Shown here: positions 29,819-36,985 of the stretch, in pieces | Layout of the letters: each line of letters opens with the position of its first letter | Position numbering within the stretch: the first letter of the stretch is position 1 | Assembly (NCBI GenBank): GCA_020721345.1 | Contig: DYMX01000013.1 | Coordinates: forward strand, 1-37,117 | Length of the DNA stretch: 37,117 nt | Source: Sulfurovum sp. | GTDB taxonomy: Bacteria > Campylobacterota > Campylobacteria > Campylobacterales > Sulfurovaceae | Direction of reading: 5' to 3' | Program-made: the position numbers and the translations under genes | The notes under the pieces: generated by a model | The model's input: the letters and a program-made list of their open reading frames with translations, nothing else | Databases searched by the model: none | What the model was told of the DNA's origin: nothing

Positions 29819-31451
29819 AAGATTAAAAACAATCGCATTATTGTTTGGTATTTTGATAATTATAATAATTATCGGGATATTTAAAAACAACAATACAACC
29901 ATAACAAGGGGCGAAGCAAAAAGCCTTGATAAAAACGGCAGCATAACAAAGGTTATCATAGATGGCAACTATCTATACCTAAATACAAAGAATAGATCCT
30001 ATAGGATCTATAAAGATGCAATTGATTATAAAGACTTTTTTGATAAATATCCCGTTGAGATAAAAGATGATGAAAGCTTTAGTTTAAGCTGGAGTATTCT
30101 TTTATTTTTTATGATCGGTTTTGCACTTTTTTATACTTTTAGCAAAAAAAAGGCTGTTGATATATTTAAAACCGGTAAAAATGCTTTTAAAAGCGGCGAA
30201 GTCGAGGAAAAGAATGAATACATATCTCCCATGAAAACTGATATCAGGTTTAAAGATGTTGCAGGGATTAGTGATGTAAAAGAAGAACTCGAAGAGATCA
30301 TAGATTTTTTAAAAAATCCAAAAAAATATAAAAGTTTCGACATAAGACTACCAAAAGGCGTGCTTTTAGTGGGTCCTCCGGGGGTTGGTAAAACGCTAAT
30401 AGCCAAAGCAGTTGCGGGGGAAGCCGATGTACCGTTTTTCTATCAAAGTGGAGCAACTTTTGTAAATATATACGTCGGGATGGGTGCAAAAAGAGTCTCA
30501 TCATTGTTTCAAATGGCAAAAAAGAATGCGCCAAGCATCATATTTATTGATGAAATTGATGCTATAGGTAAAAGCAGAGGTGCAAAACAGAGCGACGAGA
30601 GGGAAGCAACATTAAATCAACTCTTGACCGAAATGGACGGCTTCGAAGACAGCTCAGGTGTTATAGTAATAGCAGCTACAAATAAAATAGACGTACTTGA
30701 TGATGCGCTTTTGAGAGCCGGTAGATTTGATAGAAGAATATTCTTATCTTTGCCAAGCATTGATGAACGATTGAAAACACTTGAACTATATCTATCTAAA
30801 AAATCTCATACCGTAGATGTAAGAGAGCTTGCAAAAATGAGTATAGGATTTAACTTTGCATCGCTTTCTACATGGGTAAATGAGGCGGCTCTTTATGCTG
30901 TTAAACACAATAAAAGGTATATTGATGCAAGCGATTTTGAAGCAGTAAAAGACAAAGTAATAACAGGAAAATCAAGATTTCTAACTTATGACGATGAAGA
31001 AAGAAGCATACAAGCAACATATCAAGCCGCAAAAGCATTGCTTGCAGCTTGGTACGATATAAGTTTTAGCAAAATCGGCATTGCAATGCAAAACTTTGAA
31101 GTACTTGACCACAATCTTACATCAAAAAACAGCATGATCGACAAAATAAAAGTTTATCTTTCCGGATCTATAGCAACAAATTTAAAATATAAAAACATAT
31201 ATTCAAATAGTCTCAAAGATATAGGACTCAGTAAAGATTTAGCCGATAAGATCGTTAATGACTTTGATCTGATTCTCCGGAATGATACAAAGACAGAATC
31301 TTCAGAGCAAATTCTGCAAACCGCCAAAAAAGAAACCACAGTAGTTTTGGAAAAATTAGATTCCGTGCTAAATACAATTACTGAGCATATTTTAGAAAAT
31401 GAATTTATCACACAAGAAGAAGTTAGAGAGATGCTTCGTGAAATTTTTTAG
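29787..31451 (+). CDS. FtsH-like AAA ATPase with degenerate protease domain
   Basis: 'RFKDVAGISDVKEELEEIIDFLKNPKKYKSFDIRLPKGVLLVGPPGVGKT', 'IIFIDEIDAIGKSRG', SRH 'ATNKIDVLDDALLRAGRFDRR'; HEAGH position reads 'QAAKA'. Confidence 0.9.
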   Translation: MIRTFLNMDAKRLKTIALLFGILIIIIIIGIFKNNNTTITRGEAKSLDKNGSITKVIIDGNYLYLNTKNRSYRIYKDAIDYKDFFDKYPVEIKDDESFSLSWSILLFFMIGFALFYTFSKKKAVDIFKTGKNAFKSGEVEEKNEYISPMKTDIRFKDVAGISDVKEELEEIIDFLKNPKKYKSFDIRLPKGVLLVGPPGVGKTLIAKAVAGEADVPFFYQSGATFVNIYVGMGAKRVSSLFQMAKKNAPSIIFIDEIDAIGKSRGAKQSDEREATLNQLLTEMDGFEDSSGVIVIAATNKIDVLDDALLRAGRFDRRIFLSLPSIDERLKTLELYLSKKSHTVDVRELAKMSIGFNFASLSTWVNEAALYAVKHNKRYIDASDFEAVKDKVITGKSRFLTYDDEERSIQATYQAAKALLAAWYDISFSKIGIAMQNFEVLDHNLTSKNSMIDKIKVYLSGSIATNLKYKNIYSNSLKDIGLSKDLADKIVNDFDLILRNDTKTESSEQILQTAKKETTVVLEKLDSVLNTITEHILENEFITQEEVREMLREIF

Positions 31452-31953
31452 CGGTTTTGGTTTTAAAAATGAACAAGAGCTTTTTAGTGATTATCTAACA
31501 GATAGTCAATATGCGGTTGGAGGTTTTAGCTATGGGACCCAAAAAGCCTTAAAGTACACACTTGAAACAACAAGCAGGATAGATAGACTCATACTTTTGT
31601 CACCAGCATTTTTCAACGACAAACCAATGAGCTTCAAAAGAGCGCAAATGCATTATTATAAATTGGACAAAAATGCATATCTGGAAAACTTTTTAAGCAA
31701 TACTTGTCATCCAAACGATATTAAGATAGAAAGCAAATATATATCCGAAACAACACAAAACGAGTTAAATGATCTGCTTGAATTTGAATGGATAGAGCAG
31801 GATATAAAAAAAATTATAGATAAAAATATCGTAGTCGAAGTGTTCTTGGGAGAAAAAGACAAGATCATAGATTCAAAAGCTGCAAATGATTTTTTTTCAA
31901 AACTTGCTACGACTTACCTTATCAAGCAAACAGGACATTTCCTAAATGCTTAA
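31438..31953 (+). CDS. bioV: Pimeloyl-ACP methyl ester esterase BioV-like
   Basis: 'KFFSGFGFKNEQELF', nucleophile elbow 'GGFSYGTQKALKY', 'LILLSPAFFNDKPMSFKRAQMHYYKLDKNAYLENF', C-terminal 'FLGEKDKIID' and 'QTGHFL'; GTG start. Confidence 0.75.
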   Translation: MKFFSGFGFKNEQELFSDYLTDSQYAVGGFSYGTQKALKYTLETTSRIDRLILLSPAFFNDKPMSFKRAQMHYYKLDKNAYLENFLSNTCHPNDIKIESKYISETTQNELNDLLEFEWIEQDIKKIIDKNIVVEVFLGEKDKIIDSKAANDFFSKLATTYLIKQTGHFLNA

Positions 31954-32548
31954 AAAATCGTACTATCTTGAACTAGCTTTATTACTTGTATTTATTGTCC
32001 AATGGATTTTTTGGGCAATCTCTCCTGTGAGCAGAAAAGATTGGCTACTTGAAAATATTTTGGTTTTTATTATAGTTACCGTACTTGTTTTAACATATAA
32101 AAAATTTCGATTTTCAAACATATCATATCTTTTGATTTTCATATTTCTTTCCATACATATAATAGGCTCACACTATACTTATGCTCTTGTTCCATACAAT
32201 GAATGGATTGGATTTGAAAATACGGAAAGAAACCACTTTGATAGATTTGCGCATTTTCTATTTGGACTTATTTGGTTATATCCTGCTAGGGAATTTTATA
32301 TTAGAAAGCTCACAAAATACAAGCAATGGAGTGGTTTTTTTGCATTTCAGAGTGTTGTATTTTTTTCATCATTTTACGAATCGGTTGAGTGGGGCGCTGC
32401 AATAATATTTGGAGGCCAGCTCGGTATAGAATACTTAGGAACGCAGGGCGATGTTTGGGATGCTCAAAAAGATATGCTTCTAGCGGCTATGGGCTGTATT
32501 ACGGCACTTCTAATTTTATATATATGGAATAATAAAAATGAACAATAA
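31946..32548 (+). CDS. DUF2238 (YjdF-like) integral membrane protein
   Basis: 'HIIGSHYTYALVPYNEWI', 'RNHFDRFAHFLFGLIWLYPAREF', 'SSFYESVEWGAAIIFGGQLGIEYLGTQGDVWDAQKDMLLA'. Confidence 0.88.
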   Translation: MLKKSYYLELALLLVFIVQWIFWAISPVSRKDWLLENILVFIIVTVLVLTYKKFRFSNISYLLIFIFLSIHIIGSHYTYALVPYNEWIGFENTERNHFDRFAHFLFGLIWLYPAREFYIRKLTKYKQWSGFFAFQSVVFFSSFYESVEWGAAIIFGGQLGIEYLGTQGDVWDAQKDMLLAAMGCITALLILYIWNNKNEQ

Positions 32549-33353
32549 AGTAGTTATAATAACGGGATGTAGCAGCGGAATAGGGCAGCAAAGCGCGCTG
32601 TATCTAAAAGAAAAAGATCTAACGGTTTGTGCAACTGCAAGAAAAACGGAAGATGTTGAGAAATTGAAAAACTTAGGATTTAATGCCTATAAACTCGATG
32701 TTACAAACAACATAGATATAAAAAATACCATTGAAGAAATTACAAACAGATATGGAAAAATAGATGCTTGGTTCAATAATGCCGGCTATGGACAGCTAGG
32801 CGCTATTGAAGATTTGCCCACATTTGCGCTCAAAGAACAATTTGAAACAAATGTCTTTGGGCTCCATGAGTGTACGGTTGAGATCTTAAAAATCTTTAAA
32901 AAACAAGGATATGGAACCATAATCCAACACAGCTCTGTCCTTGGAATGGTTTCTCTTTTTGGCAGAGGCGCATACAATGCAAGCAAATACGCCGTTGAGG
33001 GCCTAAGCGACACGCTTAGACTTGAGCTAAAAGGGACAAATATACACGTAGTAACTTTAAACACAGGTCCAATTACAAGTGATTTTAGAAAAAATGCCGT
33101 CATAAAACTACAAAAAAACATAGATATAGAGAACTCAAGATTTAAAAATATTTATCAAAAAAGCCTCAAAGGCGAGAGTAAAAAAGTACCGTTCAACGAA
33201 GATGCCGTATCGGTTGCGAAAATCGTACACAAAATAATTGTTTCAAAAACACCAAAACCAAGATACTATATAACCAAAGCCACATATATATTAGGTTTTT
33301 TAAAGAGAATTCTTAATACAACTCTACTAGACAAAATACTCGTAAAAATATAA
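32538..33353 (+). CDS. Short-chain dehydrogenase/reductase family oxidoreductase
   Basis: 'VVIITGCSSGIGQQSALYL', 'NNAGYGQLGAIED', 'YNASKYAVEGLSDTLRLEL'. Confidence 0.92.
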   Translation: MNNKVVIITGCSSGIGQQSALYLKEKDLTVCATARKTEDVEKLKNLGFNAYKLDVTNNIDIKNTIEEITNRYGKIDAWFNNAGYGQLGAIEDLPTFALKEQFETNVFGLHECTVEILKIFKKQGYGTIIQHSSVLGMVSLFGRGAYNASKYAVEGLSDTLRLELKGTNIHVVTLNTGPITSDFRKNAVIKLQKNIDIENSRFKNIYQKSLKGESKKVPFNEDAVSVAKIVHKIIVSKTPKPRYYITKATYILGFLKRILNTTLLDKILVKI

Positions 33354-33366
33354 AGGATTTAATAAA

Positions 33367-33894
33367 ATGCAAACAATAAAAATAGGCGTTGTGACCACTA
33401 GTGATAGAGCAAGCCAAGGTATTTATGAAGACATTTCAGGAAAAGCTATCATGGAAGTTTTGGGAGAATATATGCTAAATGAGTCTATTTATGAGTATAG
33501 ATGCATAGCTGATGAGCAGAGCTTGATAGAATCTACTCTTTTAGAATTAGCAAATGCGCAGTGTGACCTCATAGTTACGACAGGCGGCACAGGACCGGCT
33601 CCAAGAGACGTAACGACGGAAGCGACTGAAACCGTATGCCAAAAACTACTTCCGGGCTTTGGGGAACAGATGAGGGCAGTTAGCTTGAAATATGTTCCGA
33701 CTGCGATTTTATCAAGACAGACTGCAGGAATCTGCGAAAAATCTCTTATAGTAAATTTACCCGGAAAACCAAAATCCATCAGAGAGTGCCTTGAGGCTGT
33801 TTTTCCTGCGATCCCATACTGCATTGACTTGATAGGCGGTAGCTATATAGAAGCAAATGAAGAAAATATAAAAATTTTTAGACCGAAGGCATAA
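33367..33894 (+). CDS. mogA: Molybdopterin adenylyltransferase
   Basis: 'IGVVTTSDRASQGIYEDISGKAI', 'TTGGTGPAPRDVTTEAT', 'VNLPGKPKSIRECLEAVFPAIPYCIDLIGG'. Confidence 0.92.
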   Translation: MQTIKIGVVTTSDRASQGIYEDISGKAIMEVLGEYMLNESIYEYRCIADEQSLIESTLLELANAQCDLIVTTGGTGPAPRDVTTEATETVCQKLLPGFGEQMRAVSLKYVPTAILSRQTAGICEKSLIVNLPGKPKSIRECLEAVFPAIPYCIDLIGGSYIEANEENIKIFRPKA

Positions 33895-33898
33895 AAAA

Positions 33899-34108
33899 AT
33901 GAATATAGATTTTATAGAATCAAAAATAAACGAAATTTTACAAGAACTCGAAAATGAAGCGATGAGTTGTATCATGGATGATAAACTTGACAAAAAAGCA
34001 ACAAATCTTCACATGAAACCAATCGTAAGCGCGAAACAAATATTGTTAAATTCGCTTGATAGCATCAAAATGGCGGACAAACTTGCCAAAGAAGAGCTTG
34101 AAAAGTAA
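33899..34108 (+). CDS. Small hypothetical protein
   Basis: 69-aa ORF closely following mogA; helical, charged. Confidence 0.65.
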   Translation: MNIDFIESKINEILQELENEAMSCIMDDKLDKKATNLHMKPIVSAKQILLNSLDSIKMADKLAKEELEK

Positions 34109-34116
34109 ATACTTAT

Positions 34117-34725
34117 TTACTTTCTTGCCGTCATTGCAAAAACAGAAAATTGACAGTGCGGTTTTTCTATAACATTTGCCGTCTCAAACCTTATGTCGCT
34201 AAAACCAACTTCTTTTGCAATACCCTCCAACATTTCCCTATCAAAACCAAAATGAAATACGCCTTTATTATCACTATGAAAACTTCCATCTTCAATGTCA
34301 AGATCAGCCATAGCAACAAAACCGCCAACATTTACCATATTAAATAATTTTAAAAAAAGTTCTTTTGTATTTTCTACATGATGCATTGTCATGGAAGAAA
34401 CTATACCGTCATACTTTATATCTTCATCGCAATCCATTATATCGCCATGGATCACATCCGTATCACAAGCAAACTCATCCCGCTTGGCAATAAACTCATC
34501 CAACATTGAACGCGAGTCGTCTATGGCAACTATTTTACCTACATTTGGGGCTACAAAGTAGGTTAGCAGTCCTGTTCCTGCACCAAAATCTGCCAGTATC
34601 ATATCTTTATCCATATATATATTTTTTAATATTATATCGGCTATCTCTTTTGCATTTCTTACTCTCATGCTATTTATGTCCCAATTTTTCGACTTATTCG
34701 CAAATAAATCTTGTTTGATTTTCAT
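34117..34725 (-). CDS. Class I SAM-dependent methyltransferase
   Basis: 'MILADFGAGTGLLTYFVAPNVGKIVAIDDSRSML', 'DGIVSSMTMHHVENTKELFLKLFNMVNVGGFVAMADL'. Confidence 0.9.
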   Translation of the reverse strand: MKIKQDLFANKSKNWDINSMRVRNAKEIADIILKNIYMDKDMILADFGAGTGLLTYFVAPNVGKIVAIDDSRSMLDEFIAKRDEFACDTDVIHGDIMDCDEDIKYDGIVSSMTMHHVENTKELFLKLFNMVNVGGFVAMADLDIEDGSFHSDNKGVFHFGFDREMLEGIAKEVGFSDIRFETANVIEKPHCQFSVFAMTARK

Positions 34726-34733
34726 TTAAAATC

Positions 34734-35390
34734 CTAAAATAAAGTATCTTTTTTTTCTAATTTTACAGTATCCCAAAAAAACTCTACATGTTTTTCAAAT
34801 AATGATACCATAGAAGAGGTTGATTTTTTGTCAATTTTAAGCAATGTTATCTGCATTTGATAAAAAAACAGCGGAGCAAAAAACTCATTTGCTAAAAGGA
34901 GGGGATCTGACGGCTCGATCATCTCATCTTGCATCATAGAAAAGAGATAGGATGAGAGTTTTTTTACGTTTTCTTGATAAAAATACTCATTATATATCTC
35001 TCTTATATTAATATTATTAAATATTTCCTGCATCAATAGCTTAAATAACGCCTCATTTTTACTATCAAAGCTTATAAGTTTAAATGTAGTCGCAACACTA
35101 GAAAGGAGCATTTTTCCCTGTTTATGGGCATCAGGAGCGCTAAAATTTGAAAATAACTTAGTAATAGCAGAACTTGTTAGCTCGGATATCAGCGTAGAAA
35201 GTATCTCGTCCTTGCTTTTAAAGTGGTTATATAGCGCGCTTTGCTTTATTCCTAGCTCTCCTGCTATATCTCTTACGCTAGTGGCCTTGTAGCCGTTAAC
35301 AGCAAACAGTCTGAGCGATACATCAAGTACGGCATTTTTTGTTCTATCGCCCCTGGATAGGGGCTTTGTGGCATTTGTTTCATCAACCAT
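34734..35390 (-). CDS. TetR/AcrR family transcriptional regulator
   Basis: N-terminal HTH 'TKNAVLDVSLRLFAVNGYKATSVRDIAGELGIKQSALYNHFKSKDEIL'. Start at ATG 35390 gives correct GGAG spacing; an in-frame ATG at 35402 is an alternative. Confidence 0.92.
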   Translation of the reverse strand: MVDETNATKPLSRGDRTKNAVLDVSLRLFAVNGYKATSVRDIAGELGIKQSALYNHFKSKDEILSTLISELTSSAITKLFSNFSAPDAHKQGKMLLSSVATTFKLISFDSKNEALFKLLMQEIFNNINIREIYNEYFYQENVKKLSSYLFSMMQDEMIEPSDPLLLANEFFAPLFFYQMQITLLKIDKKSTSSMVSLFEKHVEFFWDTVKLEKKDTLF

Positions 35391-35416
35391 ATTTTTCTCC
35401 ATAAAGTATTGATATT

Positions 35417-35445
35417 ATTATAGTGAACATCTGTTCATTTGTCAA
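35417..35445 (-). promoter_or_regulatory. Predicted tetR promoter with a 14-bp palindrome in the spacer
   Basis: Minus strand reads TTGACA-N17-TATAAT (35445-35440 and 35422-35417); the spacer contains TGAACAGATGTTCA. Confidence 0.75.
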
Positions 35446-35565
35446 TTATATAGTGTAAGAAATAAGTGAACACTTGTTAATTTAATAACTCTGTGATCAT
35501 ATTCATAAAGAACACTTGTTCATAAATAGAGTAGTTACATATATGTGTAACTGAACAGTTGTTAA
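35424..35565. promoter_or_regulatory. Array of four TetR-operator-like palindromes
   Basis: TGAACATCTGTTCA (35424-35437), TGAACACTTGTTAA (35467-35480), AGAACACTTGTTCA (35509-35522), TGAACAGTTGTTAA (35552-35565); centres 43, 42, 43 bp apart. Confidence 0.75.
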
Positions 35566-35939
35566 TATAATACCTTATATAAGCCTATATAGCGTGCTTT
35601 TATAATTTATATGCTTTTTGTTATGTGAAATTTGATCATATTTTTAAAAAGCAGGGTGTTTTGAAATTAAATAATATTATATTAGTCTTGATGCTTGTGC
35701 ATTTTTACATTAGATAGACAAGAGAAGCTGCACGCTTATTGCTTGTTTGAATTTTATGTTGTCTTGATCAAGATTTTACGGGATTTAAATACAAAGCATA
35801 AAAATCAAAAGTATTCAAAAAAAGAAAAATATATATATGACAAGTTATTATCTGCAAAAATAATGAGTAGGGATATTTACATTTTTTATAGAATTTATAT
35901 TATGTTAACCAATATAATAATTATGAGCAGTAATGCGTA

Positions 35940-35970
35940 GAGGCAAAAATAAATGCCTCTTTTTATTTTA
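35940..35970 (+). terminator. Rho-independent terminator reading on the plus strand
   Basis: GAGGCA-aaaataaa-TGCCTC followed by TTTTTATTTT. Confidence 0.8.
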
Positions 35971-36985
35971 GCCTACTATCAAGTGATAATTTTAACTTAT
36001 CTTTTAACTTATAAATATCTTCTATGTGTTCTATAGGCATCTCTTCATCTTGAAAAACTACCTTTTTGTTGCCGTTTAAATATAATCTGCATATCCATTT
36101 GGTTACCATTCCATTTAGTATTATGGCAAAATAACTCATTGTATCTTTGAAAGTTATTTCTCTTGGATCTATATATTCACTTAAAATAGATCTTACTATA
36201 TAGTACCCCTCTAGTTCTTCGTCCGTTGTAGTAATTTTATTATTATTTAATTCTTCACTATCATCCGTTGATTGTAAATTTGACTGCATAGCTAATATTT
36301 TATCATTTGCTAAATCATTTAAAATTTCATTAAATGATTTTTTAATATGCCCCTTAAACTCTTCTATTACTTGAGCAGTCATTGATTTATCTGTTAGCTT
36401 ACGGGCAAATACCTTTACAAAATCATCACTTGGATTTTCTATTTCATTTTTAAAAATATCTTGTATTTCTCTATGGTATCGCTTTACACTTGCCATACTC
36501 AGTATTGAGTCTATGTCAAGATTGTCTTTTGTAAATCTAGATAATTCTTTAATGTCTCTTTCTCTTAAATTTTCGAGATTTATAACTAAAAAAGGATTTT
36601 GATCCATTTTGTTTGGTTCTTCCAAATCAGAGAAAAAACGATATTCTATTCCATTAGTTAAAATAGCAAATTTAGAGTCAGTAACATTGAAATATCTAAT
36701 TAGTTGATTATTGTGATTATCTAGTTTTTCAGTATGGTTTTTAGCTTCTATAACCATTAAAGGTTTATTATTATAAAAAATTGCATAATCTACTTTTTCG
36801 CCCTTTTTTGTGCCTATATCTGCTATAAATTCTGGGACTACAACAGTTGGATCAAAAATATCATACCCCAAAACATTTAAAAATGGCATTATGAAAGAAT
36901 GTTTGGTTGCCTCTTCTGTTAGTACTTTCGTTTTTAAGTCTTTTATTCTCTCTGATAGCTTTTTAATTTCAATATCTAATGACAT
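35963..36985 (-). CDS. Stand-alone HsdR_N-like (type I restriction R-subunit N-terminal) nuclease-domain protein
   Basis: 'ATKHSFIMPFLNVLGYDIFDPTVVVPEFIADIGTKKGEKVDYAIFYNNKPLMVIEAKN' carries the PD-(D/E)xK-like D...ExK pattern; no helicase domain and no adjacent hsdM/hsdS. Confidence 0.8.
   Translation of the reverse strand: MSLDIEIKKLSERIKDLKTKVLTEEATKHSFIMPFLNVLGYDIFDPTVVVPEFIADIGTKKGEKVDYAIFYNNKPLMVIEAKNHTEKLDNHNNQLIRYFNVTDSKFAILTNGIEYRFFSDLEEPNKMDQNPFLVINLENLRERDIKELSRFTKDNLDIDSILSMASVKRYHREIQDIFKNEIENPSDDFVKVFARKLTDKSMTAQVIEEFKGHIKKSFNEILNDLANDKILAMQSNLQSTDDSEELNNNKITTTDEELEGYYIVRSILSEYIDPREITFKDTMSYFAIILNGMVTKWICRLYLNGNKKVVFQDEEMPIEHIEDIYKLKDKLKLSLDSRLK

Follow-up and report, generated by a model that had tools for sequence, protein, structure and literature searches.

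Operator array, promoter and product of tetR

In this study, we analysed a window of 37,117 nucleotides from Sulfurovum sp. (contig DYMX01000013.1, forward strand), in which a TetR-family regulator gene is preceded by four short palindromes and a dif site. The features are as follows.

34117-34725, minus strand: gene for a SAM-dependent methyltransferase, separated from the upstream tetR by 8 bp
34734-35390, minus strand: TetR-family regulator gene (tetR), start at 35390 preferred over 35402
35417-35422, minus strand: tetR promoter, -10 hexamer (TATAAT), separated from the -35 hexamer by a 17-bp spacer containing O1
35424-35437, minus strand: operator O1, TGAACAGATGTTCA, a perfect palindrome inside the promoter spacer
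35440-35445, minus strand: tetR promoter, -35 hexamer (TTGACA), read from the sequence
35467-35480, minus strand: operator O2, TTAACAAGTGTTCA
35509-35522, minus strand: operator O3, TGAACAAGTGTTCT
35552-35565, minus strand: operator O4, TTAACAACTGTTCA, outermost and closest to dif
35883-35910, minus strand: dif site (XerCD type), a 28-mer reading TTTTTATAGAATTTATATTATGTTAACC on the plus strand and matching the dif published for Sulfurimonas and Sulfurovum

The initial annotation had proposed a helically phased array of four TetR-type operators, and its four 14-bp palindromes proved exact in letters and position, with centre-to-centre spacings from O1 to O4 recomputed as 43, 42 and 43 bp. When at most one mismatch was allowed, the operator consensus gave eight strand-wise matches in the window, all of them O1-O4, against a mean of 1.44 and a maximum of 6 in the shuffled window, and the only exact matches in the whole 1.24 Mb genome are these same four sites. 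Tandem duplication as the origin of the array was rejected, since only the 14-mers are repeated and the intervening DNA is not.

The promoter around O1, a feature absent from the initial annotation, is of consensus sigma-70 type with the operator within its spacer, and the TTGACA-17 bp-TATAAT block enclosing O1 is invariant in an alignment of the window with its three closest relatives and prominent in the consensus of fourteen loci with 42/42/42 spacing. The start at 35390 is favoured by a GGAG ribosome site and by the relative L053, which has ACG at the window's upstream ATG codon. Because O1 sits between the -35 and -10 hexamers, autorepression of tetR is very likely, and we are nearly certain that the array serves as the autorepressor array of this gene, its occupancy being deduced from sequence. 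Binding of O1-O4 by the neighbouring TetR is supported by the exclusive co-occurrence of gene and sites together with the promoter overlap. The consensus of the Sulfurimonas loci carries a -10-like box between O2 and O1, thus a different operator would occupy the promoter core there. The tetR and methyltransferase genes form a probable operon; the methyltransferase as neighbour of tetR is confined to Sulfurovaceae.

The product belongs to the TetR/AcrR family, scoring 54.9 bits against a cut-off of 24 for the TetR_N domain (Pfam PF00440), and its AlphaFold2 model (mean pLDDT 85.5) has an all-helical fold whose best PDB matches are TetR-family regulators. The best NCBIfam match was RefZ (NF037937) at 58.4 bits against a cut-off of 180, and SlmA (NF007015) reached 24.6 bits against 120; membership of either family was rejected because both scores lie far under the cut-offs. 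The C-terminal domain of the orthologs is strongly conserved, with a near-invariant EKH motif close to the end, and such conservation would be unusual for a ligand-binding domain facing changing ligands. Most Sulfurovaceae orthologs (L023-L116) carry a C-terminal [QK]x[TS]LF tail after a linker of variable length, with LF as the last residues, a tail that is absent from the Sulfurimonas and Nitratiruptor orthologs and resembles sliding-clamp binding motifs.

Helical spacing of orthologous arrays

Three sources supplied the orthologs: 100 relatives, GTDB contigs and 250 genomes sampled across the class. Operators were located by a weight-matrix scan of the ortholog upstream regions. A tetR ortholog was found in 34 of the 250 class-sample genomes, all orthologs falling within five families of Campylobacterota. 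About 80 orthologous loci, not all independent because some are shared between retrieval routes, keep the array, usually with four operators and sometimes with three or five, and the array invariably precedes tetR and overlaps its promoter. Across these loci the spacing is only 21-22, 31-34 or 41-43 bp and half-turns never occur: the 227 intervals of the first set, a count that excludes one distant weak site in L177 lying 210 bp off, gave 22, 31-34 and 41-43 bp only, and the second set gave 21-22, 31-33 and 43 bp.

The protein tree requires at least 14 separate changes of spacing class over the three intervals, every one of them by whole turns. Such an outcome in 14 of 14 cases is very unlikely by chance, about 30 percent of random spacings falling within the observed bands by our estimate. 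Conservation is concentrated in the operators, at 1.65 vs 0.73 bits per column for the intervening DNA in the 42-bp class and 1.66 vs 1.15 in the 32-bp class. These orthologous intergenic regions, whose comparison the initial annotation had itself suggested, strongly support the proposal of TetR-type operators in helical phase, for site number and phase are both kept, and we hold with high confidence that the phase is under selection. The occurrence of two-, three- and four-turn spacings means that a fixed-distance contact between neighbouring dimers is not needed. A better fit is a common face shown to a partner, such as a sister array, RNA polymerase or a protein of the membrane or of division. 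The reading of the initial annotation stands as far as phased TetR-type operators are concerned; the cooperative binding, looping or wrapping that it took the four sites to suggest is inferred.

Linkage of the array to dif and difH

The dif site is where joined sister chromosomes are separated, by XerCD chromosome-dimer resolution. The site in the window, likewise absent from the initial annotation, lies 318 bp beyond O4 in intergenic DNA, has the conserved XerCD dif core without mismatch and is the sole match in the genome. As to the GC-skew switch at which a dif site should lie, the skew goes from positive to about zero over 32001-36000, but the contig ends 1.2 kb past dif. The gene nearest on the far side of the array (35963-36985, minus strand) turns its 3' end toward the array, thus there is no divergent target gene in the window. 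This gene, directly past dif, encodes an HSDR_N domain (type I restriction R N-terminal); no counterpart was found at the equivalent place in the relatives examined, and it may have been inserted near dif recently. A small RNA in the array-dif gap of the window was rejected for lack of any Rfam match. At 31399-31953 lies a gene for BioV, a pimelyl-ACP methyl ester esterase scoring well over its NCBIfam cut-off; the genes that come next, in the direction of the terminus, are of DUF2238, SDR and MogA-like type.

The words common to the upstream regions of many orthologs match dif as published for Sulfurimonas denitrificans and for Sulfurovum NBC37-1 (PMC2731167, in part). On the array side, dif or difH was found within 2 kb at 41 of the 49 genome contig loci whose upstream sequence extends for about 2 kb or more, a count that includes L076 at one mismatch. 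In the class sample, such a site lies within about 2.1 kb in 29 of the 34 ortholog-bearing genomes, with the array in between; the remaining five are G013, whose tetR has decayed, G122, where the contig ends, and G014, G258 and G263. A variant dif lies at 483 bp in G028, a genome from outside the class sample. In records of matching length, the positions published for dif in Sulfurovum NBC37-1 and in Nitratiruptor SB155-2 adjoin the tetR ortholog, the Nitratiruptor position coinciding with difH of G121 (PMC2731167, in part), and the sites beside the array are exactly of the published dif/XerCD and difH/XerH types (PMC2731167, in part).

At ten loci (G063, G098, G094, G077, G116, G121, G137, G140, G270 and L093), in genomes that lack XerCD dif, difH directly adjoins the array. 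All five of these loci that were checked have, on the opposite side of difH, a recombinase gene of XerH type (350-374 aa) read away from tetR, one member of the family being a tyrosine recombinase by Pfam, thus the gene order is xerH, difH, array, tetR. The order difH, array, tetR in XerH genomes is the same as that in XerCD/dif genomes. Array and dif are about 70 bp to 1.8 kb apart across loci (about 180 bp in L053): the distance from the outer operator to difH is nearly constant at 70-83 bp in five XerH loci, and to XerCD dif it runs from about 110 bp to 1.8 kb.

The linkage is not obligatory. In G010 and G017 (at 20.5 kb in the latter) tetR and an intact array lie away from dif, and no dif was found within about 5 kb in L083, L096, L099, L103, L104, G014, G258 and G263 or within 2 kb in L106, thus the array is tied to tetR more strictly than to dif. 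Many Campylobacterota have dif and lack this tetR, and none of 22 dif loci without adjacent tetR has operator-like sites within 2 kb of dif. The decayed tetR of G013 (L178) contains four internal stops, with the operator array lost and no dif nearby, and pieces matching the 3' end of this gene occur again downstream.

No gene family but tetR is common to all groups within 5 kb of dif; since the neighbour set was selected for having tetR, the telling result is that every other gene falls well short of this. The sole neighbour of tetR kept in all five families is dif, and the genes on both sides turn over, oxidoreductase neighbours being found in Sulfurimonas only and murA in Nitratiruptor, families f4 and f9 and one Sulfurovaceae genome. 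The gene after tetR is convergent in Sulfurimonas and the Nitratifractor-like genomes, thus leaving tetR without downstream cargo. A divergent target gene in general was rejected, given that the window has none and the array-dif gap shrinks to about 180 bp (L053) or 70 bp (XerH genomes); divergent rnpB in Sulfurimonas and xerH in XerH genomes are lineage-specific. The Sulfurimonas rnpB (RNase P RNA; L097:4456-4816, L110:4394-4756) lies between dif and array, starting about 50 bp from the outermost operator and reading away from tetR toward dif.

A regulon elsewhere in the genome was also rejected, the extra motif matches lying mostly within coding genes (22 of 25 inspected in relatives). A perfect operator-like palindrome occurs at position 1501 of L158 and L159 (genus g10), in intergenic DNA just past the stop codon of a nitrilase-like gene. 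A mobile unit integrated at dif was rejected as well, for each locus shows a single dif and family boundaries are respected in the tetR tree.

A candidate terminus complex and its alternatives

We propose that TetR dimers would bind the four palindromes on one face of the DNA, making the array the single binding platform of the genome. The dimer at the promoter-proximal O1 would repress tetR and keep the protein scarce. The gene, the array and dif make up a single conserved unit at the replication terminus. The likeliest further role is a terminus-marking nucleoprotein complex next to dif, in which same-face dimers could act as a surface for the pairing of sister termini or for the recruitment of a partner from division, segregation or the Xer system. 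The conservation of dif adjacency over two Xer systems changes the likely meaning of the array, and its recurrence beside dif in five families suggests an undescribed protein-DNA complex that marks the terminus. We judge it evenly balanced whether the protein acts at the terminus or dif in addition to autoregulating tetR, and the full explanation, that an autorepressed TetR on a phased array also forms a terminus-marking nucleoprotein complex beside dif, has in our view an even chance of being right. An undescribed Campylobacterota system, in which a scarce, autorepressed TetR organises the terminus through sister pairing, division-site coupling or Xer control, whichever Xer recombinase is used, is a reading that we put slightly short of even.

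The main rival, a serious possibility that we rate below an even chance, is a conventional TetR repressor that regulates itself through a switch of four operators. Its position next to dif would then reflect inherited order of genes and serve no function, and its targets would be tetR only, plus the methyltransferase in Sulfurovaceae and perhaps divergent xerH or rnpB. This reading is favoured by an array that invariably stands before tetR and overlaps its promoter, and by G010 and G017, where tetR has parted from dif with the array kept; the grouping of orthologs by family in the tree is consistent with vertical descent, and some deeper synteny exists near difH, such as murA. Where XerH is used, xerH and tetR diverge from the array between them, and plain regulation of both is possible. 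However, it is dif alone that is kept beside tetR in all five families as the flanking genes turn over, the linkage persists in both the XerH and XerCD systems, and a convergent next gene leaves Sulfurimonas and Nitratifractor-like genomes without tetR cargo, all of which speak against inherited order alone.

ArgR and PepA are accessory-site proteins at plasmid cer, and on this model the TetR-bound array might fold the DNA beside dif and promote or restrict synapsis. The adjacency of both dif types, the helical phase and the near-constant 70-83 bp to difH agree with such an accessory site, but the distance to XerCD dif varies from about 110 bp to 1.8 kb, and related genomes keep dif without any array. 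We regard this model as improbable; the overall range of about 70 bp to 1.8 kb itself argues against a precise Xer synapse geometry. Least probable, and very much so, is that tightly bound TetR dimers near dif act as a replication fork barrier or fork trap: while this would suit the location at the terminus and the [QK]x[TS]LF tail of most Sulfurovaceae orthologs, with its likeness to sliding-clamp binding motifs, the palindromic sites lack polarity and number only four, and the tail is missing in Sulfurimonas and Nitratiruptor.

Several known systems invite comparison with the proposed terminus complex. RefZ (YttP) of Bacillus is a TetR-family protein with few palindromic RBM sites, conserved in position across the genus, and acts in septum placement (PMC6657595). 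The present protein shares the family and the small number of palindromic sites, and RefZ is its top NCBIfam match, whereas the five RefZ sites are scattered and placed relative to oriC and here one phased cluster lies beside dif on its own promoter; instead of separate single motifs at conserved oriC distances, we found this one cluster and no other exact site in the genome. The nucleoid occlusion factor SlmA is likewise a DNA-bound TetR-family protein, acting on the division machinery, but its sequence match is weak, and SlmA sites are numerous and avoid the terminus, unlike the one cluster at the terminus here. In multi-operator autorepressors and looping repressors, too, the promoter of the repressor carries several operators in phase; what sets the present array apart is its about four sites, the whole-turn changes of spacing over five families and the linkage to dif. 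In Enterobacteria, the ter region contains matS sites to which MatP binds, and MatP has a part in the pairing of sister ter regions after replication (PMC7394560, in part). MatP/matS would be the functional counterpart of the array system, although the TetR-family protein is not homologous to MatP and has one array in place of many scattered matS sites.

Autoregulating TetR proteins and positional ones such as RefZ and SlmA are thus already known, and it is the phased TetR array linked to dif that seems to be new, with a real chance of representing a new terminus system. The dif of Campylobacterota has been described as having no apparent specific genetic environment, and a linked tetR and operator array find no mention in the parts of that paper on which we draw (Carnoy and Roten 2009, PMC2731167). 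Our search of the open-access literature found no report of TetR-dif linkage or of a phased TetR array at dif, nor, in the literature searched, a MatP-like or RefZ-like terminus factor for Campylobacterota. The natural series of two-, three- and four-turn spacings is an unusually clean evolutionary experiment on operator phase, and even if autoregulation were the only function, the tetR/array unit would still be a well-conserved marker of dif in the phylum. A TetR protein and phased array whose link to dif spans the two Xer systems would be a concrete and testable candidate for a terminus factor.
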